Below are positions 4,133 through 45,459 of a stretch of DNA of 64,000 nt, in pieces; the first letter of the stretch is position 1, and every line of letters begins with the position of its first letter. The DNA is from Ceraceosorus guamensis (Eukaryota; Basidiomycota; Exobasidiomycetes; Ceraceosorales; Ceraceosoraceae). The notes under the pieces were generated by a model. The model ran no database searches. It was not told the DNA's origin and worked only from the letters and a program-made list of their open reading frames with translations. The stretch spans positions 6,246-70,245 of the forward strand of contig NW_020290064.1 of the NCBI RefSeq assembly GCF_003144195.1, written 5' to 3'. The translations under genes were made by a program, and so were the position numbers.

Positions 4133-6670
4133 ATGCGCCTCAGCAGACGCCCCTGCTTCTACCTGCCTTACTTTCGTGCTGTCTGCCGCACAAGAGCAAG
4201 CAAGCGCACAGATCCAAGCTTCGATCTTACTGCAGCATCAGCATTCCCCTACCATCGATCGAACCCGCAGCCCTTTGGACCTGCCCCGCTACGCCACCTG
4301 ATCGCTGTCAGCACCACAGCTCCAAGGATGATCTCGCCCATCACTGAAGGCGCATCGCGTCCTGTGCAGGCAAACAAGCCTTCCCTTCTCGTCGGCCCTT
4401 CATCCACCCCGCTGCGATGGATCAAGCGCAGCGTCCATCACGACTGCAAGCCTGATCGGGCAGCGCAGCATTCCGAGGACGTATGGCGCGGCATGGAGCT
4501 GGATGATGGTCAGGCAAAGAATGTGCTGGTGTTGGGAGGCTCTTACGGTGGTATGCACGCTGCCAGCGTCCTGGCCCAAAAGTTGCCACCCAGCCATCGC
4601 GTCATTCTGATCGAGAGAAACTCGTGAGTGGAGCGGTTGGGAGTCGTTGCTGCTTTGCGCATGCACGGCAGCGAGCCGATTGCTCAATGGCAGAGCGTTC
4701 CTCATCTTTGCAGCCACTTCAACCATCTCTACGTCTTTCCCCGATTCTCGGTCATGCCAGGCAAGGAGCACGCCGCATTCATCCCTTACTCTTCCTTGTT
4801 CGATGCCGCCCCGGCCAGACCAAGCGTGCGAGACCGCTGGTCGAGCGAGCATCAGCAGAAGCGACAGGCGCACGCAGCCACAAGTCGGGACCCGCACGGT
4901 CCGACAGGCGATGGTGCTGCTCTGCTCGGCTTTGAGCGTAAGCCGCTGGGCGAGGGCGACCAAGCAACGCAGCGACACGCAAATGCTGATGCTCAGCAGG
5001 CAGGGGTAGCTTCCACCGAGTGGCGAGACTCTGACGAACCTATACTCCAAGCACAGCGCACCTCATCGCCAGCGTCAGATCGCTCATCTCGGGCCACAAC
5101 GACAGCATCCGACTCTGCCTCCACTCGCTCCAGCCCCGACACTGTCGCCACTTCTGTCGATCGTAACGAAGAGAGCGACATCGAGGAAGGGCCTCTAGTA
5201 CAGACCCGCAAACTCAATGAGCGGGGAGAGGTGGAAAAGCAAGCTGAGACGCTAGTCACCGAGTGCGGCGTCTCTCAAGAATTTCGACAATCTCACGCCC
5301 ATCAAGTGCTTCAAGCTAGCGTCGTTAGCATCACAGACTCGCACGTGGTGGTGCAGCCCGCGTCGCCCGCAAGTAATGCAGCGCGAGATGGAGAGCAGCC
5401 GACAGCAAAGCCGCTGTGGCATATTGATCAGCGTTCGATCCCATACACCCACCTCATCTACGCTCTGGGATCCCATCTTCCCGACCCGCTGCGCACGCCT
5501 GCTCGCACAAAGCTGCAAGGGCGTTCCTGGCTGCAAGCCATGCAAAGGCGCGTCGCACAAGCTCATGACATTGTCATTGTTGGTGGCGGCGCGCTAGGCG
5601 TGGAATATGCTACGGACATCGCTAGTCTGTACACGGGGGATGAGGCAAAGAACGTCACGCTGATTCATTCGAGAAAGCAGCTTCTTCCTAGCTTCGATTC
5701 GAGGATACACGAGGCGGCATACGAGAGACTTCTGGAGCTCGGTGTCAATGTGGTGCTGGGAGAGAGGTTGGCCACCAGTGAGGGATGCCCGCGAGGCAGC
5801 ACGAGCAATGCGCAGCAGCAGTCCTTAGCTCAGGACAGCGTCGGGGGCGGCGCAACCTGTGAGAGCGCACCGACGGGGGAGGGTCCCGCCGCGGCTAGTT
5901 CGGGAATGTGTCTTGGGGCAGGCCGCAAACTGATCAGGACCACGACGGGTCGCGTGCTAGAGGCGGACTTATTGCTGCTTTGTACGGGCCAACAACCCTC
6001 GTCGCAGATCTTGGCAGAGTTTAGTCCCACTTCCGTCGATCCTACCAGCCGTCTGATCCGCGTCACGCCTCACCTGCGCGTCGCTAGACCTGCAGATGCT
6101 GCACCCGGTCCCGTCGAACCGATCAACCCTTGCGGCGATTGCGATTGCTTTGTGGATGGCAAAGCTCACACGGTGGACAAGCACGGCAACTTGTCTGCAC
6201 CCGCTCAAATCGATGCGGACAAGGAAGCCATCCACAACGTCTATGCCATAGGAGACTGCGCCGATGCGTTTGGCGCCCTGAATGCTGGCTATCAAGGTGA
6301 GCGCCTTGTCAAAATCGCCCATGCAAGCTCAGGCTGACAATCGTTTCTTTCTCTCTGCTCAGCTTGGGCGATGGCTGACGTAGCAGCCGAGAATATACTG
6401 CGTAGCATTGAACATTCTTCGGGGTCATCCGCGTCCGCAACGGCAAATTCCGCCTCGGACACGCAAGGGTGGCAGAGCTTCACGCCTGCGCCGACTATGC
6501 TCAAGCTCTCATTGGGTTTGGGCAAGATGGTTTTCCAGGGTGCGCCAGCTGCTGACCCAGAGACGGGCGAGATGCGACCTACCATCGAGATCAAGGATGA
6601 TCCGCATGACCTGGCTGTCGAGGGCGTTTGGGGAATGGCAGGTCACCACACTAGAGATTTGTATTTGTAG
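4133..6670 (+). CDS. AIF-like FAD/NAD(P)H oxidoreductase
   Basis: Three exons: 4133-4623, 4714-6296, 6363-6670, giving about 793 residues. The FAD-binding Rossmann motif is VLVLGGSYGGMHAA, followed across the first intron by IERNSHFNHLYVFPR. The NAD-binding motif IVIVGGGALGVEYA comes near residue 480, then YAIGDCAD, and the C-terminal PTMLKLSLGLGKMVF that fungal AIF/AMID-like proteins share. Proteins of this class are pyridine-nucleotide-disulphide oxidoreductase relatives thought to act as NADH dehydrogenases at or in mitochondria. Unusual is a disordered polar insert of roughly 150 residues (about 4850-5270) between the two dinucleotide domains. An in-frame ATG at 4328 would give 728 residues. 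I chose 4133 because it opens a basic, arginine-rich presequence-like N-terminus, but the start is uncertain. Confidence 0.88.
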
Positions 6671-6898: not shown

Positions 6899-9800
6899 CT
6901 AAGGTGAAGGAGGAAGATAAGGAACACCATCGGCGTGCTGCGTGACGTGGCCCCAAGCGGTACCGGGAGGGGCATTCGCAGGAAGACTCGGCGTGGCAGG
7001 CCGGTGTTGGACGGTTGTAGGCTGTGTAGAAGCGCCAGAGGATGAAGCCGTATCTGCTGGGGTGTGGGCATGTGGACCACTGCCCGAGCTCGAAACTCTG
7101 CTTAGCTCCACCTCACCCGTTGTGGATGTCCTCCCAGCAGGTATTTGTGCCCTTGGGCTACCAGCACCTTCAATTGTCGACGTCTCAGCAGCGTTCGATG
7201 AGTGATGGCTTTCGTTTGGAAGGTGGGCTCGAGGACTCGAAGAGCCCGAAACGACAGGGGAAGGCGTCCGACTTCCGCCTATCTCAGCGTGAAGCACTCT
7301 GTGAACCTCTGGGACAGGGATGCCGAGAACGGCATTCCGCTCCAGTCTAAGCTGCTGTTGCCGCTGTTGATACGCTTGCCGTGCTGCCATGGCGTTCTTG
7401 CCCCAATGCCACAGCAGTTTGCCTCCCCCCCAAGCACTAGCAGCGGCGACTATGCCCGCGCTGTACATATTGATGTCGCATCAGTGCGGCGTAGGCGAGC
7501 GCTGAATGTAGCCTTCAGAAGATTGCTAATGACTCACGCTGTCATGAATAGATACTTCTCCCTTCTCTGACTCGCCCTCTGGTGGTCCTCGATCCTCTTC
7601 TTTTGCGCTTCATAGTCAACTACTCCGGTGGGAGCAGGGAGAATCGTGGGTGAGTCTCTGCGAGTCAGCTTGCGAGGTCTTTGAGGGTGTATCCATGAAA
7701 TCGCAAGAACAAACGAGAAAGTCAGAAGAGGCAATAAAACTCGAGGTTCTGCCAGCCCGCTGGGCTGATCCAGCTTGGGGCATTCCCCAACGGCATGTTT
7801 GTCTTTGTACGACTGGTTTGAGCCTGTGCGTGGCACTTGCATTGGACGGGTAGCACAAGAGCAGCACACCGCTGGACAATCACGTGGAACAGCAGGCGTT
7901 TGCCGCACAGAACACTCACATTTGCAGCTCGAAGGGAGCTGGGCTTGACGAGGGCATCTCGTGCCTCTTGAAGATCTTCGGGAGGCGGCCTAGCTTAGAA
8001 AGGCCCGCGCTGAACACGTTCTTGAGCTTCGTCAGGCCTCCTCCTCCAAGCTGGGCTGTAGCATAGTGCTTCCTCGTCGTCGAGTACAAGCCATTCTGTA
8101 ACATTTTCATCTTTCGATCCTGCTTGTACGCATGGTAGCCTGCTGCACCAGCTAGGCCAAGGGCCCCAACCGTCAAGCCCCTGTCAAGGAGACAGACTAA
8201 ATTACATTGTTGCTTGAGCTCAAAAGAGAGCACGCTGACACTCACCCGAGAGTGGCCGTCGTTGCAGTGCCTTGGTCTCGCTTGAAAATCTTGAAGCGAC
8301 CAAATCTGGAAAGAGCACTCTTGAAGGCATTCTTGGAGCTGTCTAGGCTGCCATCGACGCTCATCGGCTTGCGTGCAGCTTGCACAGGCATTAGACCTTG
8401 GTTCTTGAGAGATCTCATCTCCTTGTGATGAAGGCGGGCGTAATAGAGGCCGGCGCCCGCACCGAAGCCGATCGCTCCCGCGCCTAGAACGCTGATGATG
8501 AAAGACGTCAGGCAGGAAGTCAATTCCTACAAGCCGTGTAGGCTACTTACCCAGCCGTCCCTCCCACAGCCTTCTTAGTGGTGCCGTCTCGTGCACCTAG
8601 GAAGCTTCTGAGGGATAATAAGACGAAAGCGGGGTCAGCGTCCGCCTTCGACAGCGTCGCACCACGGATTTATGGACTATCCGAATGCAATGCAACGTGA
8701 CTCACGGCTCTTCGCCCTGCAGAGTTTCTGTCTCATCCAGCCCCATCTCACGCCGGCGCAGGTGTGGCACTTTTCGGAATATACCAGTGATTTTGGAGAA
8801 GAGACCTCCGCCGCCAATTTTCGCCGCTGGTTGCGTTACGAGTGGTACTTCTTTGGCCAATTGAGGATTAGGCTCGAAAGGTCTGTTCAGCGCCCTCAGT
8901 TCGGCAGCTTGTTTGCGGTATTTCTGATACCCGGTCCACCCCGCGTGGATCAACAATCCCCCTGTGACACCTCCCATCGTACCCCAAAGTCTGCGACGAG
9001 CCAAAGTTGGCCGCATGAATGATTGGTCAGCAAGTCTAAGGCAAAGCTACTTTGCTGACTCACGCGGCATACTGCTTTTTCGTCAGGTCGCGGCTGTCAC
9101 CTTTTGGCTTTGATTGGCGCCTTGAAAGATCGCTCGTAAAAGTGTCAGCTTGCAAGCGCTCAAAGAGCACACGAACTGTACACCGACCTTTCAATTGTCT
9201 CTGAAACGCCGGTCTGAGAGTCATGACGCTTCCAGAACTTCAAGCGGCGCAAGGCACTGGCTTTCCCGCCCAATTTGGAGAGGAACCCTCCATTCGGCTT
9301 GCTTTTCACTTGCTGTGTCTTCTTAGTGGAAGCCAGCGAGGATCTGAGCTTATTGTTACCTTTCGTGCTGAGATACCACAAGCCTCCTGCGGCCCCCACC
9401 CAGCCAGCTCCGCCGGCGGCTACAAGCCACGGGCTGGCGCTGTACATAGCAGACGTGAGCGTAACTCCAAAGCGGTCTGGCCACACGGTCTACATACTTG
9501 GATTGAGTGACCGTATTACGAGCTTGCAATTCCGCACTGCGTTTCAAAAGGATTGGGATGACGTCAGTCCTTCTCGCGGTCCTCCGATGGAGGTGGGCCC
9601 AACGGGACATCGCTCATTCGACCCTTGATGGGCCGATGTTTGTCGACAATCGCCCTGCAGGCATTTGACATGCGCCCTCAGTTGTTCCGAAGCCGAGGGC
9701 ACATTGTGACTCGATCGCATAGTGTCACACGTATTGTGTTCACCATTCGAGTGAAGCGTGAGACGCCCTGGAAGTCGGCTTGCCGACGGCAAGGCACGGC

Positions 9801-12256
9801 ACGGGGAGTGGTGCACTTCGCGGCAGGCGATCGTGCGTTTGTTGCTCGTCTATCTCGTGCAAATGGGGAGAGAGTACGAGCCGTGGAAGGCATGATAGTC
9901 ATCATCTTCCCTGCCAAGACAAGGGTTGTAGACGCTCTGCTCGCGTCACGTCAATGATCGCGCGCTTTCGAAGCCTCAAGCGCTTCAACCGCCCCAAGAA
10001 TGTCCCAAACTTGGACCAGGTTGTTTGCCTTGGCCCTGCAAGAGCATGCATTGGCCTCGGCACGGCAGTAGCAGGGACCAGCCTCGGCAATTCGACAGCA
10101 GGAACTGTTGCTGGTATTTGAACAGCAGCATCCGGCCTCGGAACAGCAACAGCAGGGGCTGGCCTCGGCATGGCAACCTCGGGAATTGAGCTGACCGGAC
10201 TGATAGCGGCCGTTCGCCTCGGATTCGAACGCCATTGCTTTGCTTTGTGCACGAGATACCAGAGACCACCACCTGCCACTGCCGTCGCACTGGCACCGAT
10301 CGCGCTGCGCAGTTGCCACGATATCAGCATTCGCCAAGGAACCCTCGCACAGCGTGACTCACGCCGTGTTCAGCACTTTTTCCCGATGCCGATCGTCGTG
10401 CTCGCTTTGAGTTTTAGGTTGAGAACCGACAAGCCGTGGAATCAAATCGTGCACGTCATCGGCTCTACCAAGATAAAAAGCGCAGGGACAGCGCGCCTAT
10501 TTAGCCCGGACATCGATATGTGCTACTCCTTTGGCACTCGCTCTATGCTCGCAGCAGCACAATCTAGCAGACCTTTGCCTATAACGTGTGAGTGCTTCCC
10601 TGACCTCGGACGAGATCGATAGCTTTGAAAGCGACCCGTCCCCAAGGCTGTCGGCATTGCGCCAATGCTCGCAATCTTTCTGCCTAGTCGCACCTCGTCA
10701 GGAGCATCTAGCCCCATGGCGTGACTCGACCAGCCTGCACGAATCTCTCCACGGCGATCGTGTGGATTTGCCGCCTGCCTTTGAGCAAGCATTCATCATT
10801 CGAACAAATTTACGCCTTCAAAGCTGCCCTATGGGGCAGCTTCGTTGAATCCAATTGGCAAAGGACCAAGACGGACTACGAGTGCAGATGTCTGTCTGAC
10901 ACTAGCTTGAAGCTCGTGGCGCGTTTGAGGAGTCTCTTGGGTCTTAGATGTCGTAGAAGGCCGAGCAAGCGCGATCCTGAACTCCCACCATGACCTTCGA
11001 CAGCAGGCTTAGCAGCGCCTCGAAGTCCGTGGAAGGGATTTCTGAGTGGCTTGCTTGGGTCGCGGTGAGCATACCAGACAGCCCCCGCGACTCCAGCCAG
11101 CCACGGGACCGAGGTGACTGCCCCTCTGGCGAGGCGGTGCAAGTCAATGCCGACGTGTGCCGCCCTCTTGTCTACCATCCGCTCGCTCGGGACTCTTAGC
11201 GTACTCACATGGCCATAGACTTGTTGCGCCTACGTCTGCTTTCCTCGGAAGAGCTGCGGGCTTCCAAGTGGTCGGAGTCATCGCGGCGAGCGCCAACGAC
11301 TACCGTAGGAGCCACGATGTGTCTGCACGCCAGGCAAGATGTCAACGCACTCTCATTATAGTGTGAACCCTTTCTCAATTGCTCACTCTGCAGCGCCGGG
11401 AGAATCTACTTTGGGTTCGCGTGAATCGAGGTATGTCGGTCTACAAAGCGCAGCCAAATGATAGTATATGTGAGACGGCATTCGGTGCGTTAGAAGTGGA
11501 TAAGCGGCTCGTAAAACTCACAGAGTCATAGAAGATCTTTTGGCAATTCGACCAAATTTGCCAAACTTGCCAAAGAGAGATCCGATGCCTTGGCCACCTC
11601 TTCCGCCTCCGACTGTTGTCTGTGGTGTCATTCTGGTGGGCAAGTTGGAAGCGCTGCCTGGTACGGCTCGAGCAGACTTGGCGTTCGCGTCGAGCTTCCC
11701 CTTGCGCCCATTTCTCCACTTGTTGATTTTGTAGCCTCCGTATATTCCCCCGGCTAGGGCGAAGGGCGTGGCGACCAAGCTACGCATTCAAAGCAATGCG
11801 CTAGTCAGCACGACCCAGCCTTGCAATCCCGAATTTGACGAGCACAGCTACTCACACACCACCGCCGATAGCATGGCGCCTGGACAGCATACAAAGCAGA
11901 CGATTTGTCAATCACTTTCGCAGCAAGTCATGCGCGAAACCGGAACTTACTTCAATTCGTCGTCGTCACGTTTCCAGAACTTCAACGCCCTGAACTTGCC
12001 GCCAGCGGCTTTAAAGAGAGTGCTAGGTCCACTCTTGGCTGGTGTAGCAGATGAAGTGCCAGGCGTAGATCCGAAGCTCGATGTCCTTGAGGGACCTTCC
12101 GATAGACTGGAGGTGGTACTAGGGTTGCCCCACTTTGCTTTTTCCCCCTTCTTCAGCCTCTGGCGCTGCTTCCATGACTGGTGAGCGTAGACACCTCCAA
12201 AACCCACCCCAGCGGCTGCATGAACCCCCACGATCGTGCTGGGAGTTGGCTCAAGG
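6899..12256 (-). repeat. Nine-copy exon repeat array R1-R9
   Basis: Repeat exons are R1 12256-11951, R2 11779-11522, R3 11125-10880, R4 10304-9921 (3' end uncertain), R5 9439-9188, R6 8990-8706, R7 8491-8246, R8 8180-7920 and R9 7460-6899. All but R9 are about 250-380 bases long. Conserved features by eye are an (A)IG or LGG entry, a glycine-zipper-like core (GALGLAGAAGY, GAGAIGFGAGAGLYY, AAGGAGWVGAAGGLWY), then Lys/Arg, and a basic tail ending KR, RKR or RRR. Small linker exons of 24-120 bases separate most pairs, but R7 joins R8 directly. R9 keeps the hydrophobic entry but has a long Ser/Pro/Thr tail and no dibasic end. Confidence 0.8.
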
Positions 12257-13074
12257 CTGTAAGAAGCACGGCGATATGTTTGGCGCGCACACACTTGCTC
12301 ACCCCAGTGCAAGTTTGTCCTCGTCACTCAGTCTTTTCGCGAGTTGAGAGAGCTGGCCCCGGTCCGAGTTTGAGCCATCGGAGGTTTCAGCGGCCTCGAG
12401 AACCTCGCGCTGCTCCCTCTGGGCGAGGTGATGCGTTCTGCAGATCGAAAGTGTCAGTCGAGCCAGCGCATCGAACCGCGCACCCCTTCCGCAAAGCAGT
12501 GGAGAACAGCGCTCAAAGCTCGCCCTTGCACCGAGCAAGTAGTAGCTCGCTGCTTTCGAAGTGCCGTGCTCGAGCGCGGCGTCGCTCCAGACTCACTGTG
12601 CAGCAAAGACCTTATCAGAAGCTCTTGCGGTAACGACGACAATTGGAGCGTCCTTGACTGCAGTATTGCGGCGCGTAGTCGAGATTCCTCTAGCCTCCAC
12701 TGAAGACTGCTCCAACGAGACGTCGTTGCTTTCGATAGGTGATGGCCGTCGATGTCAATGCGGTGCACTCTTTCAGGCAAAACAACTCTTGTTATTAGCT
12801 CACTCAGACGTTGCGCGCTTGGTCGACTCTGACTGGCTGGAGACAATGTCTTCGGCGGTGCTGCGGAGATTGAATGTTCACCTCCCGTGAGGTCAGCTTT
12901 GCTTTTGGCGGCCACTCCCGCATTGTGAGCTCACCCTGAAGTGTGGACGTCGCGCGTCTCAAAACGGCGATGTTGAGTTCGAGCATTCTGCATCTCCATC
13001 ACCGGCATGGGCTGGGCCGTAGTGATGATGATGCTCGTCAGCATAATCAGAGCAGTGATATTGGGAGCTTTCAT
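6899..13074 (-). CDS. Secreted multi-repeat precursor with serial KR sites
   Basis: About 20 exons join to roughly 1,258 residues. Exons (minus, high to low): 13074-12935, 12860-12804, 12728-12597, 12437-12303, 12256-11951, 11879-11856, 11779-11522, 11322-11209, 11125-10880, 10464-10363, 10304-9921, 9536-9498, 9439-9188, 9120-9064, 8990-8706, 8607-8551, 8491-8246, 8180-7920, 7657-7538, 7460-6899. Exon 1 starts MKAPNITALIMLTSIIITTA, a clear signal peptide. Nine repeat exons each carry a Gly/Ala-rich hydrophobic stretch, a Tyr plus basic cluster, and, except in the last, a basic amphipathic end such as KLGRLPKIFKR, GRFKIFKR or LKFWKR. STKR, TTRR and LAKR sites occur before the repeats. This is the layout of Kex2-processed fungal polyproteins (Candida Ece1, Ustilago Rep1), though I see no sequence match. 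Processing and function are inference. Least certain are the exon 3 acceptor, the 10880 and 9921 ends, and the 10.6 kb region. Nine separate genes is the rejected alternative. Confidence 0.75.
10045..10190 (-). repeat. Degenerate minisatellite inside repeat R4
   Basis: About five imperfect copies of a 27-33 base word built around GGCCTCGGCA/AACAGCAACAGCAGG. They encode a run of Ala/Val/Pro-Arg units (AVPRP-like) in R4, which makes R4 about 130 bases longer than its neighbours. Confidence 0.7.
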
Positions 13075-13607
13075 CTTGGAAGAGGTAGGATGAGTAGGTG
13101 TAAATGACTAGATGAGTTGGTCGCTGCCTGTAGCACCAACGCGAGGAAGAGGATGGAGACCAGCTCCGGGTGAAATGATAGACTCAAAAAGAATGAGCCG
13201 TGTTCGACATAGGCTTTGACCAGAGACCAGCTCTGTAGATCTCATAAGATGCGGGGTAAGGCCAGCTTACGGGACTTGGGGTGATGTTAGCGAGGCGTGA
13301 GGCAGCGGAACATGTGAACCTGCTGTCTTTATACACACGAACTTCACGCCCACACGATGGGGCATCTGCGATTCTAGCGTGCTTTTGCAACGGTCAGCGT
13401 GATCGGCGCCCAAGTCAGGTGGCGCAGGCCTGGCTGCGTGGATTTGGCTTTTCGCCGTCGCCAAGACAATCGTGAATGCAGCCGGCAAGTGGGAGGGCGC
13501 ACTGGTGAAGGCTGTTGAAATGGCGTCAAATGAATTCATTCCATTTTGGCTAATTTTTCTGTGGCTGCTCCGCGCAGTCGGCTAGGTGCACCGCATACAA
13601 CCAAAGC
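13075..13607 (-). promoter_or_regulatory. Upstream region of the repeat precursor
   Basis: No gene is seen in these 533 bases. Read on the minus strand, TATAAAG occurs at about 13327-13334, some 250 bases before the precursor ATG. It is a candidate TATA box, although the distance would require a long leader. The far end holds the CCT8 3' region. Confidence 0.35.
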
Positions 13608-18045: not shown

Positions 18046-21000
18046 ATGAATCGCAAGCGGCGAGCACCGCACGATGAGCAGGATGAGGAGACATCGCCTA
18101 CGTTCGGAGCGGTGTTGCGATCTGGCCAGCTGCGTGTTTCAGACAAGCCATCTGATAGACCAAATGTTGGGACGGGAGAGGGAGATCCGGATGTACATAG
18201 AGCCTCATGTAGGAGTGCACAAGCGCACGCAGACCCTCCAGCCGCCCACAAGACGAGCTGTCTTGCTTGTCGAGAGTCCAAGGTGCGTCTCTCAATCCCG
18301 GCGGATCAGAGGAAAGTCATGCTAACGTATCCCGAATGCGCCCTCAAAGGTGCGGTGTGTGCCACGCGCAGGACAGGTCTTGGGTGTGGGCAAATGTATG
18401 CGCTGCGAAAGGCTTAAGAAGGATTGCATCTTCAAGGAGCACAGAAGGGGGAGGAAGCCCGGTAAGGTGTGAGCTGGAGTGCACCATCTTAGAAGCGCGC
18501 CGGGTGCAGCGTGAGCTCCGTCTGATTTGCACCTCATGACCTCCACGCAGCAAGCACGTTCAGATAGACCGACGATGGCAGGCCCTCATCAAGCTTCTCG
18601 ATGAGCTGGAGTCCTTAGTGAGTGTTCAGTCGCAGGACAGTCCCTTCAATCGCCACGCGCTCCGGTCTGACTTTGATACTATCTTCCTAGACTGACGCGA
18701 TAGCGGATTTGGATGGAGCTGCGCTTGTCCGCTCTCTCAGGTACCAGCTGGTTTCTTCGCTCGCTGCTATGGAAAAGGATGGTACGAAGGCTCACCAAGG
18801 TTTAGGCCACGATCACAGCCCCAGTGGCGCGTCCTCACCGACAGAGCCTGCGTTCAGCATGGCGTCGACTTCGATCAATGCGAGGCGGGGCGGAGATGAT
18901 GCTGGTCAGTCTTCCAGCACGGCATTGCCTCCCACTGCGACACTCCTCCAGCCACAGCCCCGCAGTGTTGAGTCTCACGGCACTCCGGCGAATGCGGCGC
19001 AAGGTCTATCACCATACGAGCACTCCATATCGCACAACTATCCCTATCCATTGCCACAGCACGCATCTCGCTCCAGGGGTCGAGGATCAGCGGCAGCTCT
19101 AGTGGAATTGGAAGACTACGAAGCACAAAGGTCTGTTCCGCGATCTGTCGACACTCTGACCAATCCCCTCAAGCTCTTGGCAAGAGCTAGCGCCGTCGTG
19201 AGAAGTGCTTCTGGAACGCTGGACGAAGATGAGGAGGTCGAAGATCAGAGGGAACTCAGTGCGAGCTTGTTGGAAGAAGATGCACGAGATAGGGACGTGT
19301 CAGGAGCGCATGGCGACGCGCGAAGTCGAGACTCGAGAGCACTCAGAGCTATGCACAGAGCCGCAGAAAATAGGATACATGACCTCTCACCTGGCTCAAA
19401 AACCACCGTGACACCAAGGCGTTCCATTCATGCATCTGCTGGCCAGCGCAAGGAAACAGTAGACGATGTGAATTGGTCTAGCTACTTTGCGCGCGGAATT
19501 TTTGCACCTGTGCGTACAAGAATACTCTTCTCTGTGAGAAAGTCGCTGCCTCACAGACACTGAAAGTCTGCATCGTCTTTCAGTTATATGACACTGGGCC
19601 AGACCTGGATCCGATCGAGCTGGGCATCATCACTGTGGATCTGGGTCAAGCCCTTGTGGCTCACTTCTGTGAGTGGCTGCAAAGGAGACTCTGGATTCGC
19701 TCGATGGTGCCTATGCCGGCTAGCGAGCAAGAGCCTAGCAATGCGTCGCTGATCCTCTTTGTATTCTGCTGCTTGCTTAGACTCGGCACACAGCTCATTC
19801 GTGCACGTCTTCGACCCACTACTAAGCACGCTCGAGTACATGCGCCGAAGAAGTTGTTTCTTGCTCACGGTCATCTGCCAGATCTCTGCCATCACATACG
19901 GTGATGACTCCGGCCAGCGACTCGATGGCCAAGGAGGTGTGCTACAGCGGCTCGTCGAACACAGGGAGTATCTGACGCCTATCATCTTGTGTGGCGGATA
20001 TCGGAGCGTCGAAGCTGCTCAGGCGTGCATTGTGCTGTGAGTTGACCGGAAGCGTGAGAAGTAAGGCATCTTTGACGGAAATCTTCTGCGGCATTTAGCG
20101 CCCAGTACGCTCCTCTAGCAAGCTCGGCCACCGAAGACCAGACCTGGAGCTTGATGGGTACAGCGCGTGAGTGAAAGGTTCAAGACGCTGTGCCACCTTG
20201 TATAGCAGGGCAGCTGACCTTGCTGCCCTCTTGGCATCTCAGTACGCATGACCACTGAGGTGGGGTGAGAATTCTTGCGGAGCCCGCACCTTCATGTTCC
20301 GTAGTACCGCATGACCTGACAGCGCAGCATGCCCGCCTCGCAGATGCAATCTCAAGCTCTTTTCTTATCTGCCCGTGCCTCTCCGTCTACGACAGGAGTC
20401 CGGCGCTAGAGCAGAGAAGCATCAGCGACAGCTGCGCAACACCGAACGCTTATGGTTTACGCTTTGGCTCTTCGCGAGTCATGTTTCTTCGCAGACTGGT
20501 CAGAGACTCATGCTGTCTGATGAAGGCAGCGTCGCGGCGTCCGGAACATGGCACACTAGAGATTTTGCTCTACCACAGGACGAATGGCTCATTGCCCAGG
20601 TCGAGCTGCGCAGGATTATTGTGAGTACGTTTGGTGTTCCGCTGGTCGGTTGTGGTAGGCTGCTGAGCCAAGACAGTCGTCTGCGCATTTCACTGCAGAC
20701 AAGGGCTACCGAGCGCTTCCATTCGCAGATGAAACATCTCATCGCTGAAGCGTCTTCCACGACGTCCCTCAATTCTTCGTCTGCTTTGGACTATCAGGCG
20801 GAAGCTTTCCGAAGTTCAATTCTTCAAGACTTGAGCAGGTGGGCCTCGGCTTGGCTCGGCACTCCCGAAGCGGTCCCGTCGCAAGAGTCACAGTCTCGAC
20901 CTTTGCTCGATCTCGGTCATCTAGCACTAGCTCATGCAAAGCTGGTCACCTTGTCTTTGCCTCTTCTTACATGGCCTGCGTCTCCAAGGGCCTCTACGGA

Positions 21001-21700
21001 ATCCGGCCCAAAGACTTTGCGTCTGCCACGAGCTCTCTTGCCTCACTATAGAGATGCTTGTGAAGCAGCTCAGACGTTCCTCAGCTTGCTTGTGAGCAGA
21101 TGGGCAAGCCTGAAGAGGAAAGACAACGTGATGCTGGTAGATGCGCTCCACGCTTCCGTCTTGGCGATGCGTTTCGCCAGTCTCGCGCCATGCGATGAGC
21201 AGCCCTACGTTACACAGCGTGATCAGGAACGCGTCGCTGGTATGGTCCAAGAGTTGTGTCACCTGCTGCAGGCAGAGGAACGACGGGTTGGCAGGAGGTA
21301 TGCCAACCTTTTGCAGAGTGTCCTCAACACCTGGAAACGCACCATCTGCTCGGTCTTATCGGAAGATTTGGCTCCCCACATGGAGGTAGCCCCTGGCCAA
21401 ACGCCTAGACACCTCGAAGCCATGTCGAGCGCTTCAGGATCTAGAATCGACACGCTCTACTCTGGCCTCGCGGCTGCAGGGCCACAGCACTCGTCATCGA
21501 GCGGTCAGAGCACCACCTACAATCTCGATGGAAATCCGGACGCCTCTGCTCTCGAGAATGGCGCTTCGCTCTTCGATGCCCAATCCATCTGGTCCATACT
21601 CTTCCCCGAAGCGGTAGACGGCTCAAACCTGGACCCCTTTTTGCTATCCCTCGCCGATGCAAACGCTTCTCTGGCCGACATGAGCAGCAATCTGCCTTGA
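18046..21700 (+). CDS. Zn2Cys6 transcription factor with fungal-specific TF domain
   Basis: Ten exons: 18046-18282, 18350-18468, 18551-18617, 18691-19509, 19584-19668, 19781-20036, 20099-20166, 20243-20264, 20410-20620, 20699-21700; about 961 residues. The binuclear zinc cluster spans the first intron: SCLACRESK then VRC, KCMRC and KKDC, giving six cysteines in the standard CX2CX6C-CX2CX6C order with an 11-residue middle loop. It is followed by a basic RRGRKPGK linker and DRRWQALIKLLDELESL, a short coiled dimerisation segment. The middle domain contains the stretches LLTVICQISAITY and RNTERLWFTLWLFASHVS, as in fungal_trans. The C-terminal 100 residues are Ser/Ala-rich with acidic patches, suiting activation. 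Targets are unknown. The tiny exons near 20.1-20.4 kb are the least certain part. Confidence 0.85.
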
Positions 21701-29274: not shown

Positions 29275-32200
29275 TCAGAAGGAGAACAGTCCGCCTCCTC
29301 GGATCTTGCGGCCACCAAAGACGTACGCCAGCATGGTAGCAGCGAATAGGCCAACCGTAAGACCGATGGCCACCTCTACGAGGCTCTGCGCAACGTCGAA
29401 GCCCGAGTTGAAGTTGCTCGTGGCGCTGCTTCCCGTGCCAGATCTGGCAAAGTTGAGCAGACCACCGTTGGAGAGACCAGAAGGAAGCTGGTAGAGGATA
29501 CCGGGGACACTGACGACGAAAGCTCTGCCGTCAAAGATTCTTCCGTAAATATTCGCTAGCACTCCGACGCATAGGCTTCCCAGTGCGGAAGTGATGTCCT
29601 GTCGACCAGTCAAGGCTCCAGCTGTGCTCGAGAAGTGGTTGACTGCCCATCCTGCGCAAGCAATCAACACCATCACTGGAAATTCTTTTCGATTCACCTT
29701 GACCTGATTACGCATCGACAACGCGGTGGCATAACCGGGCACTGTGAGGAAGCCCCATGCCAAGGGCACCGTTTCTCTCCACCAAACGTTGGGGGGATGG
29801 ACGGCCGGATCTGTGCAATTGAGGTACTGGATCGTACTGTCGCCTGACCCGCTGAAGAGAAGCCAGAAAGAGGATCCGATGCTGATTCCAAATCCGAGGA
29901 AGAGACTGTAGATGATGGCGTAGACGAGGCGGACTGACCCAGCGATCAAGTTCTTGCTCTGCAGCTCGAGTGATCCACTGAGGACGATGAAACCAGGCAA
30001 GATGAGCACGATGGATCCCGAGACCACCGCCGCGTAGCAAAAGTACTGTGTCGATGCGAGGGCAGAAGCGACGAAGGAGTTGATGGCAGCAAAGACGATT
30101 TCGAATACGTTGCTAAAGAGTTCTGTGGTGATGACGCTCTGGCAGTAGACGAGGAACATGCCGAGCGGAAAGGCGACCAAAGCATCGATAAAGCTTCCGT
30201 TGAACCCCATGCTTCCAACGCAGATGAAAGATGAGCAAAAGCCGCCAATGAAAACCATGGGCCACATGCCAATGACGGGTTTCCGTCTCATCAATTCGTC
30301 TAACTGCGAACTCGCTTCCTCGACGCCAATCTTGTCGTGAATCACGTTCCAGTAGATCGAGTGCATGTCGGTCAGCTTGGTCAAGTCCAGACCACCCGCC
30401 TGCTTGATGAACTTGGTTTCGGAGGTGTGCGTAGCATCATCGCCAAAGGCGAGCAGCATCAGATTGGGCAGGTAGATGCAGCGGGCGTTGATCTCGAGCA
30501 CACGCGCTGTCTGCTGAATTTGCGTCTCGATGCGATGTGTAGGTGCTCCGAACATCATCAAGGCTCGGGCGAGCTTCAAGAGGAACTCTTGCCGTTGCAG
30601 GATCGCAGCAACGTGCATCGTGATCTGAAAAGGTGGAATTGCTGGGTCAATAACGAGCCCTTTTTCAATCAGAAGGAGATTCCACTCACGAAGATCTCTT
30701 CCTTCTTGCGCTTATCTTTGGCCCTCTTTTTTAACTTGCGCTGCCATTCCAGTTTCTGCAATTTGTCATCCATCTCTGGATCAGCGTGGCCAAAGTAATC
30801 TCCTCCGGAGTCTGCCGTGTACACATCTGGAGTGTTGACGTTGCTTCGCCAGCCATGCTTCCCGTAGAGGTGCGAGCTGAATTGACTCAGAGAGCTGCCT
30901 TTGCGATGAGCGTTGCCACCGACCGTAGCGTCCGTGTTTCTCCGCGCAGGACCAAGGAGAACACTTGCAGGTCTGCTGGTAGTCTTGTGAGGGCTAGCTG
31001 CGCCATCCTGCGGCGACGCAGCAGCCGTTTCGCTGCTATCATTGGGATGAGGCGAAGAGCTGACGCTGGTGCCTATGCCGGGTAGATGAGGTGTGCCCGG
31101 TGCGGATCGTCGAGGACGAGGCGCAGCATCAGCTACGATCTCTGCAGTCTTGCGCAGCGTCTTTTCATTCATCTCTGGAAGTAGGTATCTATCCAAAGTA
31201 TAGCCGGGACGCTTGGGATTGGGACCGAGTTGCGCGTGCCAAGGACTGACTGCACCGATCAGGTTACCGGTGACAGCAACCAGGCCTCCAATCGTGCCGG
31301 CGTTGGATCTCGCAGCCTTCGGCCTGTCGTCGACAGCATCATCGATTCCCGATTCTCGCGCTGCGACCTGAGCTACCTTCTTTGTCGCGCCAGCAATCTT
31401 GGCGGTACCTTCTGCAACGAATGCGCCGGCCAAGGCAGCAGGGCCCGGACTATTGGCACCGCCAGTGTTTTCCGCAGACCAATAGCTTCGACGTCGCGCT
31501 TTGGATCTAGCATCCGCGGGCACCGGCCCGATGCTAGACGCGGTAGCGGCAGTCTCGCGAGCTAGCTCGGCAGCGACCAGGTCAGACAGGTTCGCAGGAG
31601 CGCCTGCGCCACCCCGGACCCCGCTGACGGGAGGGGTAGACAGAGGCGAAGTTGCCCGAGATTCCGCCAGCTCCTTTTGTTTCCGTGCGGCTTCGCGTTG
31701 TTGCTGCTCGTAGAGCCGCAGCAAATTGCCGAGGACACCTCCTGCAGCGACTGGTCTCGCGTCCAGATTCGCGGCCGTGTCAAGCGCATCCGGTGTGCTC
31801 GCCTCGGAGTCAAGGTGTTTGCGACTCATGGTGGGCATACGGCCAAGACCTGCCGCGGCCGCTCCTCCTGGCATACCGTCGCTTTCTACGCTCTGACCAG
31901 TCATCAAGCGGTGAGCCTTGACCAGACGGGCTGCTTCACGTTCAAAGCGTGTGGGCCTGTGGCGGGGGCCTGAATGCGTGCCGGTAGAGGTAGTGACGGG
32001 AACACTTTTTCTATTCGTGGGGCCGCCAGCCTCGTCGTTCCCAACGTCCGCCCTGGTAGTGGGCAAGCCCTTCTCATCACCCTCTTCGTCCTCGGCAGGC
32101 TTGCGCAGGATAGCTCGGAGTCGAGCCCATCCTTTTGGCTGCTCTTCCTGCTCGTCCTCGCGCTTCTGCTGCTGCGTCTTGCGGCGACGTGGCCGGGACG

Positions 32201-33167
32201 GCATGCCGTCCGTCTCTCCTGGAATCACATCGATATGGTCCAGATCGCTATCGGCGGCCGGATCGTAGCTACCGGTGTCGCTAGTGCCGCTGGCCCATTC
32301 GACGCCAGGAGTGGAAGCCCCGCTCATGCTGGCGCTAATATCGTAGTCGGGAGTGTCTGCTCGACGTGCCGCGTGCCTCCGTGAGAAGGCAGCGCGGCCA
32401 CCATCCTCCGAGACGGGGGCCAGACGAGCGCTGCTTGGCTCCACCACTTCTGGGACGTTGGACTCGTGCCGTTGCAACTCTCGCTGCAGCTCCAAGAAAG
32501 CTCTGGAATCCAAGCCCCGCTCATCGAGGCCCTTGGCACCAGTGAGCGACAGAGCGGGCACGTTAGCACTAGCAGGCGCGCCGAGGTGATTGCTGGGAGC
32601 GCTTATCTCGGGTTGCGCGTTGAAGTATTGGGCTGCGGCGACATTGTTAGGCTGCATCGGATCTTCGCCTGCGCTCTCAGCGACTGGTGGAGCTGAGCCG
32701 GGCGCATTCGGAGCAGCAGCGGCATCCGCACTCATTTCTGCAAGGCGAGAGGACAACTGTAAAGGACCGGGATGAAAAGCACGATTGACGCTTCCAGGCG
32801 TGGGAGGTTGATTGCGTGCTCTCAGAGTCACAGTGGCACCACCTTGACCTGCATGTACGCGCCTCTGAGCAGATCTTGAGGCGGCTTGAGCAGCAGCAAA
32901 AGCAGAGGCTGTTTGTTGAGCTGGTGCAGAGGTGGCTTCGATACCAGAGCTAGGGGCCGAAGTGTGGAGAATGCCGCCCCTTGCGATGGAGGCGGTGTTG
33001 CCATCCCAATGCACGCGGCCTCGCCTCGCCGAAGTAGCGGAGATGGGCGGGTGCTCGGTGGAAGGGGACTGGTTGCTGGAAGCTGGTCGGGTGTGAGGAG
33101 CCGTGCCCGTCGCCAACCTGAGTTCAGGAGACTCGCCGCGAGACGCGGCATTGTCTAGATGACTCAT
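29275..33167 (-). CDS. Prm10/ThrE-like (DUF1212) membrane transporter
   Basis: Two exons, 33167-30690 and 30624-29275, giving 1,275 residues. The second exon carries the conserved ThrE domain: FLLKLARALMMFGAPTHRIE, then a loop with YLPNLMLLAF, then about ten membrane segments (IGGFCSSFICVGSMGFNGSF, AAVVSGSIVLILPGFIVLSG, LVYAIIYSLFLGFGISIGSSFWLLF and others). Bacterial ThrE exports threonine and serine, and yeast Prm10 is pheromone-regulated; the function in basidiomycetes is not established. The first exon codes 826 residues of low-complexity Ser/Ala/Arg-rich sequence ending in a Lys-rich KLKKRAKDKRKKEEIF helix that runs straight into the domain. I chose the ATG at 33167 (MSHLDNAAS); another in frame lies at 33185. 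Confidence 0.9.
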
Positions 33168-34293
33168 GATTGTGCCAAAGATCAAACAAGAGCAAGTAGC
33201 CTTGCGTCAGGAGGTGGCAGGCAAGAGCAAGACGCCCCTGTTGTTTCGCACGAGGGAGAGCAGTGGCTGAGCGATCTGCCCCGAACACAGGGGCAGCTCA
33301 GCTCAGTGGCTGGTGCTCGAGGTGGTCTTGGACGCCCTGGAATAGGTCAGGCAAGGAAGGCGGTCCGAGGCAAGCTGTGTGTATTCCAATCTCTATGGGC
33401 GAGCGTAGAGCCTGGAGAAGCTCGATCTAGTGAGGCTTTCTATGATGCGCAGATGCGCGTGCACGTCGAGCAAGATTGCTGGAGTTGCTTTGGAAAGGTC
33501 GAGAAGTTGTGGAGGTTGTTCGTGATCGTGTATCTCTCTAAAGGTGAGGAGGGGTGAGCTTGGAGGAGGTCAAAGCTGTGATGGCGGCCGCATACGCTTG
33601 CGGGATCTTTGATCGACGGGCTGAACGAGGGGTACGAGGTACGCTGCGCGACATTTGGGAGTCGCGATTTGAATGTCACAAAGTTCGAACTCGCGACTGA
33701 TGACTTTGTTGAAAGAAGCACAAAATGAGGGCTCGTCACCCTTGGTGAGCTTGCACCGCCAACGGGCCCACGGGGGGGCGTGGCGCATGCATGCCACATG
33801 ATGCTGCTACACAGCTTCACGGCAGCCAATTCCGGTCCCGAAGCCGCGCGTTCAAAGCAAAATCGTCAAATGATCTATACCCGCGCGGACATGGTTATAG
33901 GGCCTGCTGCCTGCCTTGGACACCGAAGTCCGAATGTCTTCAATTCACAACTTCAATAACATGCTGTCCCGTTTCCTCTAATCTCGCTTCGAAATGACAC
34001 ATTCAAGATTCTTGATTCAGATTATGTTCAAAATTCGAGGGTGCGCGTTGGCTACTTTGACGATCGCTGCTGCTGCTGCATGTCTGTCAACGTAAATCGC
34101 CGCAAGCGCGCGCTGCCGGGTTCGGCAATCTGAATCAAATCCTCGAATGCACAGGATGGGAAAGGCAGCTGAGCAGTCAAAGCAGTCATGCAGAGAGTCA
34201 GTGTGTGCATCAGCTGTGCTGACTGGTTGCATGCGCGGGCAAGCCACTTGCGACAGGCAAAGAGCGCCAAGAAGGCAGCTCGATCGATCGATC

Positions 34294-42232: not shown

Positions 42233-45200
42233 ATGCCGGCTCGACAGCAGAGTGCTTCTGTCGCGGCCCTTGGTCAGGGCTCTGCGACGTTCAAGACTGA
42301 GCACGAGTATGTCTGCAACGGTGGTCGGGCTGCTTTGGTGTGAGTGTGTATGCCTACTTGCTCTTCCCTTGCTGAAACCGGAGCTCAAAAGTTTTTGGAC
42401 CGACTTGGGGGGCGCAGCGTACAGACCTTGCCGCAGAAATATCTGACTGTGATGGGGGGCTCTGCGGAGAGGGGCAGAGGTGCCATGACGGGATTTGTTC
42501 GGGTGGATGGAGAGGCGAAGAGCGTCAAGATCAAGGTGAGGACGTGTTGTGCTGGTGATGGTGAATGCGAAGATCACCTGCTGATGTAGCTGTAAGACAT
42601 TACCTCTGCTCAGATCACCGCGATCGTGACAGCCAAGGTGCCAAGAGTCAGCACAGCCATTCCTCTGGACAAGCTGCCCTCTTCCACTTCGCATACAGTA
42701 CAGTCCCAAGAGCTCTTCAACTCGACGACTATCGTTGCTATTCCGCACAGTAGTGCGAGCTCTTCAGCCGCACACGTCATGCCTTTTGCAATCGAGCTGC
42801 CACGCAGCTCCACCCATGGAGACCTGCCCGCATCGTACGTGCTGCAATCCTACAAGTCCACCAAGGCTACTCAGAAGGAACAGAGAGGCGGGCAAGACAA
42901 GGGCGAAGAGTGGGCATCGATCAGGTGGGAAGCGAGATTGATTGTGGAGAGAGGTATTCTGCGCAAATCGGACAGGACGATAGCGCCTTTCGCCTTTCTG
43001 CCTCCTCCGCCTGCTTCGCCTGCAGTCGCTGCCTCCATCGACAGATCCAATCGGACTCGCCGCTTGCTCAAAGGTCAGCCGACTGCTTTGGACGTGCGCG
43101 CTCTGCTGAGCTCTCCATCACCCGCCTCGTGGACGACACATAAGCTGCCAAGTGTGGCTCTCCCACCCCCTGCCAACAACCCCGGTCTCTTTGCCAGGCT
43201 GTTCGGAGCGAAAGCTGTGGGCTCTTGTCTGGAAGAGGTCTGGAGCGTCAAGCTTCCAAATGAGCCTTTGGTCGCTAGAGCTGGGCTGAGCTTCGTGATA
43301 GAATGCAGACGACAGTGGAGCTACGAAGTAGGCAAGCGGGAGGTGGATCTGCCGGTGAGAAGGAGGAATTGTCACGAGACGGAAGAGACGAATACTGACA
43401 TCGGCTGATTGGTGCTCACGCTCTTGCCGTTACGCAGGCTGTGGAGCTCTTGCACGCGACCTCGATGCCGGGTGGGTCGCATCGTACAACAAGCATGGGA
43501 GGAGCATTCGTCTCAGCGCCAATTCAGACGGTTTCGCCTTCCAGGGCAACAGTTGCTGCTGCATCTCGCGGAGCAGACTACATCGAAGAGGTGCACTATT
43601 TGGGTCACCTGTCGATTCCAAGCGCCAGTACAGCGAGCTTCAGCACGGCTCACCTGACTTTGAAACACTGTGTCCAGATACGATTTCCTTCCTTGGACCA
43701 GCCCTTGGAGATTGAGACTAAGTTGGTCGCTCACCCGCCAGCTAGCGTCGCGATACCTCACCCTGCTCCGGGCATTCTCGTATCTAATTCGAGCGCTTTG
43801 CCTGGAAATCCGGCACCCCCGGCACCTCGAGCGTACAATCCGCCTCGCAGGGATAGCAATGCGCTGTCAGATCCGACTGGTGGGCTTCCAATCCACCCAG
43901 GTCCCGAAACGCTGTGGGCTGATGGACCCACAACACCAAACTTGTCCAGTGCTGCGACTCATCCCTCTGCGCCTCTCCCACACTCGACATCGATGGCCGG
44001 CGTTGGGAGTGCGGTGGGCCAATCCAGAGCAAATACAGGGAGTCGCGAAACAGAGACCATGTCAACTTCTTCCACCGCGCGACCATCCTTGAGCCCTGCT
44101 GCGGTCCAATCTCCAAGCCTTGCTACTCAAGCGCGTGGCGGTGGAAGCAACAACAACCAAAGCGTGAGACCCGGGGCATCTCTTGCTTCCGCCCCCCATT
44201 CTCGTGGACGACCCGAGACCAGGCCGAGCAAAGTGTCGGCCGGTCAGCCACCACGTCCGCACTTTGATACGCGGAATCTCAGCGCTACAGACGCTGCGGC
44301 TTCCTCGACCGCTCGTCACCCGCACCGCAATTCAGCGCCCTTGCTCCAAGTGCCTGCTGGAGTCTCGTCCTCTCCGTCGCCGCCTGCCTCTCTCTCCCCG
44401 TCGCCACACCCAGCTTCTGCGCGTGGAGCCTCGCCTGCGACAGCATCGCCTGCCGCCACGCCTCCTTCTGTCGCAACCAGCACGCCGCCATCATCCACTC
44501 CTCCCGTCTCAGGCCAGCGGCCAATCTCGATAGCGCTCGGCGCTCACTTTGCAGCTCATGCTCGCTCGTCTGGCGCTCAGCAAAGTGCGATCTCTGACCA
44601 GCGTAAGGCGTCCGCTACGCCGCCCATCAACGCAGCAGCGACTCCTCAACATGCTGCTTCGGCCTCCGTCGACAGTCCTCACGCACCTGCGATACAACGC
44701 GCTAGTGGCGCTGCTACCTCATCTCGACCGGAAGCAGCAGGTTTCAGAAGGCGGCTGCTGAGCCATCAGAACGTGCTCAGTCAGTTGGCCAATGTTCCAC
44801 TCGTCCCTTCAGCAACGTCAGGCACGGCGTCACTGCAAGCGCAGCTGAGACCTGAGCAGATTGCCGCGAGGAATGGTAGAAGGACCTCTGCTTCTCCAGA
44901 TCCTACATACTCCCCCGACTCGGCAAACGTGGCACGACCATCCGTCCCACAACAGAAAGCTCTGCCTCGGATTAGGCATTCTTCCGAGGCTGGTGGCAAC
45001 ACCTCCACGCTTGGCCCATCGGCGCCCCCAGCTCTCCCACCACAAGTGCCGGGGAAAGAGCCTTCGGTGAGCGATACGACTTTGGGCCCTGCAGCTCTAC
45101 CTCCAAGCACGCCATCCACATCGACCATGACGAACACCGCGCCTCCAGGCGCATCGATAAGCTCTTCGAATCCTTATACTCCAATGCCCTTAGGACCTCC

Positions 45201-45459
45201 GCTGCCCAACCCTCACAGCCATGCGCCTCCGACAAATTTCGATGCTTCATCAGGACTAATAAGGTCCAACGTCGTATCCGATAATGCTTCGCAGCATGAA
45301 AGCAACTACACCCAGTCCATCGCTCCGGCGTACGATCAAGCTTGGCTCTTGGAAGACGTCTCGACGTATGGCGACGATGAAGATGAGCGGGAAGCAGAGG
45401 CGGACGCTTCGTTGCCTCCTAGCTATTTCGACGTGACTGGCATACCCGATGAAGATTGA
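42233..45459 (+). CDS. Alpha-arrestin-like adaptor with PY motif
   Basis: Four exons: 42233-42339, 42418-42535, 42614-43354, 43438-45459; 995 residues. The N-terminal half has the arrestin-like beta-sandwich pattern (GFVRVDGEAKSVKIKITAIVTAKV; SFVIECRRQWSYEVGKREVDLP; a later LKHCVQIRFPSL strand). The C-terminal half from about residue 430 is a long Pro/Ser/Ala-rich disordered region, and the extreme C-terminus contains LPPSYFDV, a PPxY motif. Alpha-arrestins (yeast ART family) use such motifs to bring the ubiquitin ligase Rsp5 to plasma-membrane transporters for endocytosis. The exact ART subgroup is not clear. The first intron acceptor (42417) was chosen because it keeps phase. Confidence 0.8.

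Follow-up and report, generated by a model that had tools for sequence, protein, structure and literature searches.

A Ceraceosorus guamensis locus of phase-2 exon modules that resembles a Kex2-processed multi-peptide precursor

Kex2-processed repeat proteins (KEPs) of fungi have been delimited by two published sets of criteria, which require either a SignalP signal peptide, no TMHMM helix, at least four fragments at KR or RR and at least three fragments sharing a Fimo motif (Le Marquer 2019; PMC6339444), or tandem repeats with a per-position identity score >0.6 over 40-residue seeds (Umemura 2020; PMC7329392). Within the Ustilaginomycotina, the described precursor Rep1 has 652 residues and is divided by Kex2 cleavage, with ten amphipathic products that measure 35-53 residues and a further one that measures 228 (source passages on Rep1, on Candida albicans Ece1, on aphid bicycle genes, on schistosome micro-exon genes and on C. 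guamensis are among PMC9769878, PMC4617103, PMC5784256, PMC9168663, PMC4350168 and PMC11687029). Here, a locus is described from a window of 64,000 nucleotides (nt), the whole stretch of DNA analysed, which lies within a contig of 90,751 bases (NW_020290064.1, C69 in our numbering; positions 6,246 to 70,245) of the 23.8 Mb assembly of Ceraceosorus guamensis (GCF_003144195.1). The modelled exons of this locus span window positions 13074-6899 on the minus strand and form three blocks, A, B and C, which encode nine glycine-rich units. The reading that we favour, with confidence at about the halfway mark, is that of a multi-peptide precursor processed by Kex2 and enlarged through duplicated phase-2 exon modules; on this reading block A is complete, and units 4-9 are most likely alternative continuations of it.

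The gene model contains 21 exons and 18 introns, and all 18 introns are in phase 2. The exons were placed by hand, the phase being already known when some of the acceptors were picked, and the placement was checked by a blind scan for exon chains. Models from a simple gene finder were discarded, being unstable and containing implausible tiny exons. The donor is GTGAGT, GTGAGC or GTAAGT in 16 of the 18 introns, GTATGT in one and a weak GTCGGT in another (9187), which scores 1.3 compared with at least 7.1 for the other 17; the acceptors that close the introns are CAG or TAG in 16 cases and AAG in two (before 12728 and 9120), and intron length ranges from 46 to 262 nt. Since no intron departs from phase 2, each of the 17 internal exons is symmetric, and the frame is kept in any of the 190 forward pairings of a donor with an acceptor; none of the 190 creates a stop at the split codon. 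The first-pass annotation had proposed minus-strand exons with consistent splice sites, which is borne out by the 17 strong donors of 18 and by the uniform phase. The features are as follows.

12935..13074, minus: exon 1, start codon and signal-peptide-like N-terminus (block A; hydrophobic core scored)
12804..12860, minus: exon 2, pro-region with a KR site (block A)
12597..12728, minus: exon 3, pro-region whose start is uncertain (12728 with an AAG acceptor in the model; 12689 with a CAG or TAG acceptor in the blind scan)
12303..12437, minus: exon 4, acidic pro-region, KR site preceding unit 1 (block A)
11951..12256, minus: exon 5, unit 1, running from a hydrophobic segment rich in Gly to FWKR (block A)
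11856..11879, minus: exon 6, 24-nt micro-exon opening unit 2 (block A)
11522..11779, minus: exon 7, unit 2, KR end (block A)
11387..11440, minus: exon 8, spacer (block A)
11209..11322, minus: exon 9, acidic spacer containing RR and RRRR (block A)
10876..11125, minus: exon 10, unit 3, KR end and stop TAG (end of block A; weak phase-2 GT at 10900)
10363..10464, minus: block B spacer exon that opens with an acceptor (start searched for, none good)
9902..10304, minus: block B unit 4 exon, KR end and stop TGA (no codon signal)
9498..9536, minus: block C spacer exon, opened by an acceptor (start searched for, none found)
9188..9439, minus: block C unit 5 exon, FWKR (weak donor; frame otherwise runs to a stop at 9160)
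9064..9120, minus: block C spacer exon (AAG acceptor)
8706..8990, minus: block C unit 6 exon, RRR end (splice sites, unit alignment)
8551..8607, minus: block C spacer exon (splice sites)
8246..8491, minus: block C unit 7 exon, IFKR (splice sites, unit alignment)
7920..8180, minus: block C unit 8 exon, IFKR (splice sites, unit alignment)
7538..7657, minus: block C spacer exon, start uncertain (7657 in the model; in the blind scan, where introns >200 nt were barred, 7759)
6899..7460, minus: block C unit 9 exon with a hydrophobic segment and a long tail rich in Ser and Pro up to stop TAG; KR end absent (splice sites)
13328..13333, minus: TATAAA box upstream of the block A start codon

Block A (13074-10876) comprises ten exons and forms a complete open reading frame (ORF) of 489 residues, with a signal-peptide-like start followed by units 1-3; block B (10464-9902) comprises two exons and unit 4, and block C (9536-6899) nine exons and units 5-9. 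The blind scan covered both strands of the entire window and linked exons into a chain where their splice sites were strict and their phase was shared; its top chains were one of eight exons (12934-11209) and one of five (9063-7538), both in phase 2 and both in the locus. Fifteen of the 18 donors reappeared in it, as did 11 of the 13 acceptors of its two chains, and two exon starts fell elsewhere than in the model, at 12689 and 7759. The next chain, of four exons in phase 0, lies inside the same locus, and the best chain elsewhere in the window has two exons; the longest chain had one exon in three Markov-resampled sequences (one strand scanned) and three exons elsewhere in the genome, where the scan took in 22 loci that total 206,525 bases and partly overlap. 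A codon signal trained on 11 other ORFs amounts to 0.181 bits per codon in the frame of block A, where the other two sense frames hold 15-16 stops; block C is open over 625 codons, with 0.127 bits per codon in frame versus -0.015 and -0.098 in the other frames (25 and 21 stops). The modelled exons are real, and block C is coding. The longest placed intron (7919-7658, 262 nt) contains a frame with a hydrophobic stretch that is continuous with the downstream spacer exon.

Units 1-8 share a layout of a Gly-rich hydrophobic segment, basic residues, a linker, a cationic stretch and a terminal KR or RRR. Eight of the nine units have a basic end, which is KR in seven (units 1-5, 7 and 8), in agreement with the first-pass description of most repeats as KR-terminated, and RRR in unit 6; unit 9 has neither and continues into a long low-complexity tail. 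When the units were aligned with one another, at most one of 200 whole-sequence shuffles reached the observed score in 10 of the 36 pairs, and when the shuffling was done in blocks of 12, none of 200 did so in six of the 36, these pairs linking units 1, 3, 4, 5, 6, 7 and 8. The nine repeats that had been called related are nine Gly-rich units, of which units 2 and 9 are tied to the others mainly by anatomy. The linker of unit 4 (exon 10304-9902, minus strand) carries an internal array of short Pro/Val/Ala-rich repeats, unlike the other units.

Charge is segregated along the modelled exons. The cores of units 1-8 carry +10 to +15 over 71-115 residues and the spacers -4 to +2; acidic residues make up 2.3% of the cores versus 16.7% of the non-core sequence, a difference equalled in 3 of 1017 rotations, and when the dibasic pairs that delimit the cores are counted as zero, net charge is as extreme in 4 of 1017. 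Cysteine is absent from the 1281 modelled residues, where 11 long ORFs of the window would lead one to expect 12.5. The uniform intron phase, the confinement of acidic residues to the spacers and the lack of cysteine go beyond what the first-pass annotation had described. KR is found 13 times in the 1281 residues, whereas shuffled sequences average 6.6 and at least 13 are present in 43 of 5000; the only block enriched by itself is A (as many in 29 of 2000 shuffles). Block A holds 13 KR or RR positions, three of them overlapping in one RRRR, and cutting at these would give more than four fragments, in excess of the four required of a KEP.

A candidate processing enzyme is encoded elsewhere in the genome: its sole P_proprotein match (E 1.1e-25, C32:48897-49157) falls in a 518-residue open frame that reads as a probable subtilisin-type kexin. 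An apparent membrane helix lies in the adjoining frame. The signal peptide of exon 1 was judged by eye and membrane insertion by a simplified score, which is 0.4 for the N-terminus of exon 1 and 1.9-3.9 for the hydrophobic segments of the nine units; for reference, the score is -1.9 for the helix next to the Kex2-like frame and -1.0 to 1.3 for the better ThrE and RTA1 segments, and CCT8 has no segment up to 4. The marginal scores of the unit segments favour translocation over anchoring, without amounting to proof. A membrane protein that is polytopic or anchored at several points, its KR pairs being mere positive flanks of membrane helices, appears very unlikely: aromatic and basic residues follow the hydrophobic segments, as they do in membrane helices, and some ThrE and RTA1 segments score equally weakly, but all nine unit segments are marginal, KR lies tens of residues past the hydrophobic segment, and the alternation of charge tracks unit and spacer.

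The first-pass annotation had joined a signal peptide to all nine repeats in a single polyprotein. Its signal-peptide-like exon is indeed joined to units 1-3 in the model, but the join to units 4-9 is not borne out, and the single polyprotein is not sustained by the model: the unit 3 exon ends at TAG (10876), the unit 4 exon ends at TGA (9902), and no start was found for block B or C. After the KR of unit 3, the sole phase-2 GT is 10900 (GTCAGA, score 1.5), use of which would join unit 3 in frame to 10464 across 436 nt. After the KR of unit 4, the sole candidate donor is the very poor 9920 (score -5.6), and in unit 5 it is 9187, without which the frame meets the stop at 9160. If the terminal exons of units 3 and 4 were skipped, in-frame introns of 744 nt (11208-10465) and 826 nt (10362-9537) would result, both exceeding the range of the model. 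A join of unit 4 to unit 5 would thus need either exon skipping or a very poor donor, and a single polyprotein could be made through the weak donors 10900 and 9187 or through skipping of the two terminal exons. A search just upstream of blocks B and C yielded no good candidate for a signal-peptide exon; at a donor score >1, one four-residue first exon is possible for block B and none for block C, and a weak start at 7842 is possible before the last spacer exon of block C.

These observations also bear on the possibility, which we regard as a minority one, that at least three separate or partly dead genes are present, block A being a complete three-unit precursor and blocks B and C being tandem duplicates that lost their first exons or have unrecognised starts, with unit 5 perhaps standing apart from units 6-9. 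The two stops and the weak donor after unit 5 would fit such an arrangement, as would blocks that open with acceptors behind gaps of 411 and 365 nt containing no GTRAGY, and a block B with no codon signal. Between blocks A and B, part of the gap sequence (10660-10472, minus strand) is also weakly unit-like (tblastn E 0.032, uncorrected for three queries and three gaps) and is possibly a remnant of another unit. For block C, however, the 625 open codons, the in-frame codon bias and the eight phase-2 introns make a dead copy unlikely. The TATAAA box stands 254 nt upstream of the block A start codon as the sole TATA-like match in the 526 nt examined, and the gaps before blocks B and C contain no TATA-like site; moreover, the weak phase-2 donor at 10900 could link block A to block B.

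On the favoured reading, the locus would have grown by duplication of a phase-2 exon module that combines a hydrophobic helix rich in Gly with a cationic linker, a C-terminal stretch that is likewise cationic, and a dibasic site. The precursor would enter the endoplasmic reticulum, and the Kex2-like protease would cut it after dibasic sites in the Golgi. The acidic spacers may hold the precursor near neutral in the secretory pathway until then, as cationic cores are neutralised by acidic spacers until cutting in other cationic-peptide precursors. Cutting after KR or RR would free cationic amphiphilic peptides, with cores of 71-115 residues and longer products if sites in the spacers stay uncut. 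Units 4-9 would be read as alternative continuations of the block A transcript, by skipping of stop-bearing exons or by use of weak donors. In a more specific form that we consider decidedly doubtful, the locus is a combinatorial peptide gene, in which the exons of units 3, 4 and perhaps 5 act as alternative terminal exons and one promoter gives a ladder of secreted precursors with different sets of cationic peptides. The earlier proposal of a Kex2-processed secreted precursor, with peptides that have one hydrophobic and one cationic end, agrees with the anatomy of units 1-3, fits units 4-8 and gains from the encoded Kex2-like gene.

The freed peptides might act at membranes or surfaces, either on the membranes of competitors or a host or at the fungus's own surface, as with Rep1. 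That they are surface-active wall proteins like the Ustilago Rep1 repellents, released by the same processing and not membrane-active, seems to us less probable than otherwise. Rep1 is a described Kex2-cut precursor of the Ustilaginomycotina, and the locus has Gly-rich hydrophobic segments without cysteine; against this stand the charge and length of cores 1-8, the acidic spacers and the gene A search described below, whose length range includes the 652 residues of Rep1.

Several results weigh against the reading of a Kex2-processed, jointly transcribed precursor. The case for secretion consists of a signal peptide read by eye and a simplified score, and the weaker ThrE and RTA1 segments, at 2.6-4.0, overlap the units, which leaves room for anchoring. 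KR is not enriched in block B (363 of 2000 shuffles) or block C (615 of 2000) alone, and the C-terminal stretches of the eight units are no more amphipathic than their shuffles (p 0.107 to 0.81). An AlphaFold model of unit 8, computed with the eight units as alignment, contains helices at 2-34, 47-64 and 70-73 at low confidence, with a mean predicted local distance difference test (pLDDT) score of 58, which is too low for the model to be used in fold comparison. The codon signal of block B, 0.040, is matched by 0.036 in another frame and surpassed in the A-B gap, where one frame reaches 0.080. Strong donors are missing after the KR in the exons of units 3, 4 and 5, blocks B and C open with acceptors and yielded no good start, and the searches described next returned no homologue by which conservation could be seen.

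Seven sequences of the locus gave nothing above the cut-off in Pfam, with weak matches solely for units 7 and 8, and a PDB search gave 0 matches. A protein database queried with gene A gave none at E up to 10 among 7999 candidates scored (length range 269-856), and a second protein search, in which about 8000 candidates of restricted length were scored, returned only P0001, an 89-residue internal frame of the unit 4 exon. No annotated protein for the locus was among the candidates scored, in a database that holds at least one NCBI protein of C. guamensis. A search of the genome itself returned the locus and two weak matches elsewhere (E 0.16 and 0.90). No paper on the locus was found in searches of the open PubMed Central (PMC) literature.

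The locus is flanked by a pyridine-nucleotide oxidoreductase frame on one side and by CCT8 on the other. Ten of the 20 long open frames scanned in the window have a Pfam match, and there was no sign of a peptide-modification cluster among the 20; UstYa (DUF3328) had no match genome-wide, but likewise none in 14 control genomes. Three long frames of the window, 30672-33206 minus, 43399-45456 plus and 20315-21697 plus (845, 686 and 461 residues), have no Pfam match at E 0.001. C. guamensis is known solely as a yeast-like stage isolated from a healthy leaf in Guam; two Ceraceosorus congeners are leaf pathogens of Bombax, and plant pathogenicity is not established for C. guamensis.

The locus resembles a KEP, with repeats and an exon layout that are unusual among known fungal peptide precursors. 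With KEPs it shares a signal peptide (here predicted), several units bounded by KR or RR and a Kex2-like protease encoded in the genome. It differs in that its units sit in symmetric phase-2 exons with acidic spacers and its repeats are too diverged for the published identity screen, the best ungapped 40-residue self-match in an approximate test being 0.35 against the threshold of 0.6. A KEP survey seeking near-identical repeats (PMC7329392) would miss such a diverged precursor, and in the main text of the 2019 survey the word "intron" does not appear (PMC6339444). If the exon-phase signature marks such genes, a search by gene structure could reveal an unseen class of diverged precursors in smut relatives.

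Among individual fungal precursors, Rep1, Hum3 and Rsp1 of Ustilago maydis belong to the same subphylum and likewise have imperfect repeats separated by Kex2 sites, whereas the peptides of Rep1 are mostly of 35-53 residues and the cores here are longer and strongly cationic; this comparison is one of descriptions. Ece1 of C. albicans, the candidalysin precursor, is likewise secreted, has seven KR sites and yields an active peptide that is N-terminally hydrophobic and C-terminally positive; it differs in size, with 271 residues and an active peptide of 31, and the likeness is by description, with no homology claimed. 

Beyond fungi, aphid bicycle genes encode fast-evolving putative secreted products from many symmetric exons, the internal ones almost all in phase 2, as are all 18 introns of the present model, and schistosome micro-exon genes encode fast-evolving putative secreted products through alternative splicing of symmetrical exons. 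Aphid bicycle proteins have paired Cys-Tyr-Cys motifs, which are absent from this cysteine-free model. Both gene families are animal, no homology with them is claimed, and the present locus differs further in having several exons of 250-560 nt and dibasic sites as its organising element. A search of the open PMC literature turned up no fungal gene of this symmetric-exon kind, the sole match being a paper on wasp antimicrobial peptides. The strict phase-2 layout raises the question of peptide diversity by alternative splicing in a fungus, and if the combinatorial reading is true, the locus would be a fungal counterpart to micro-exon and bicycle genes in which Kex2 separates the products.

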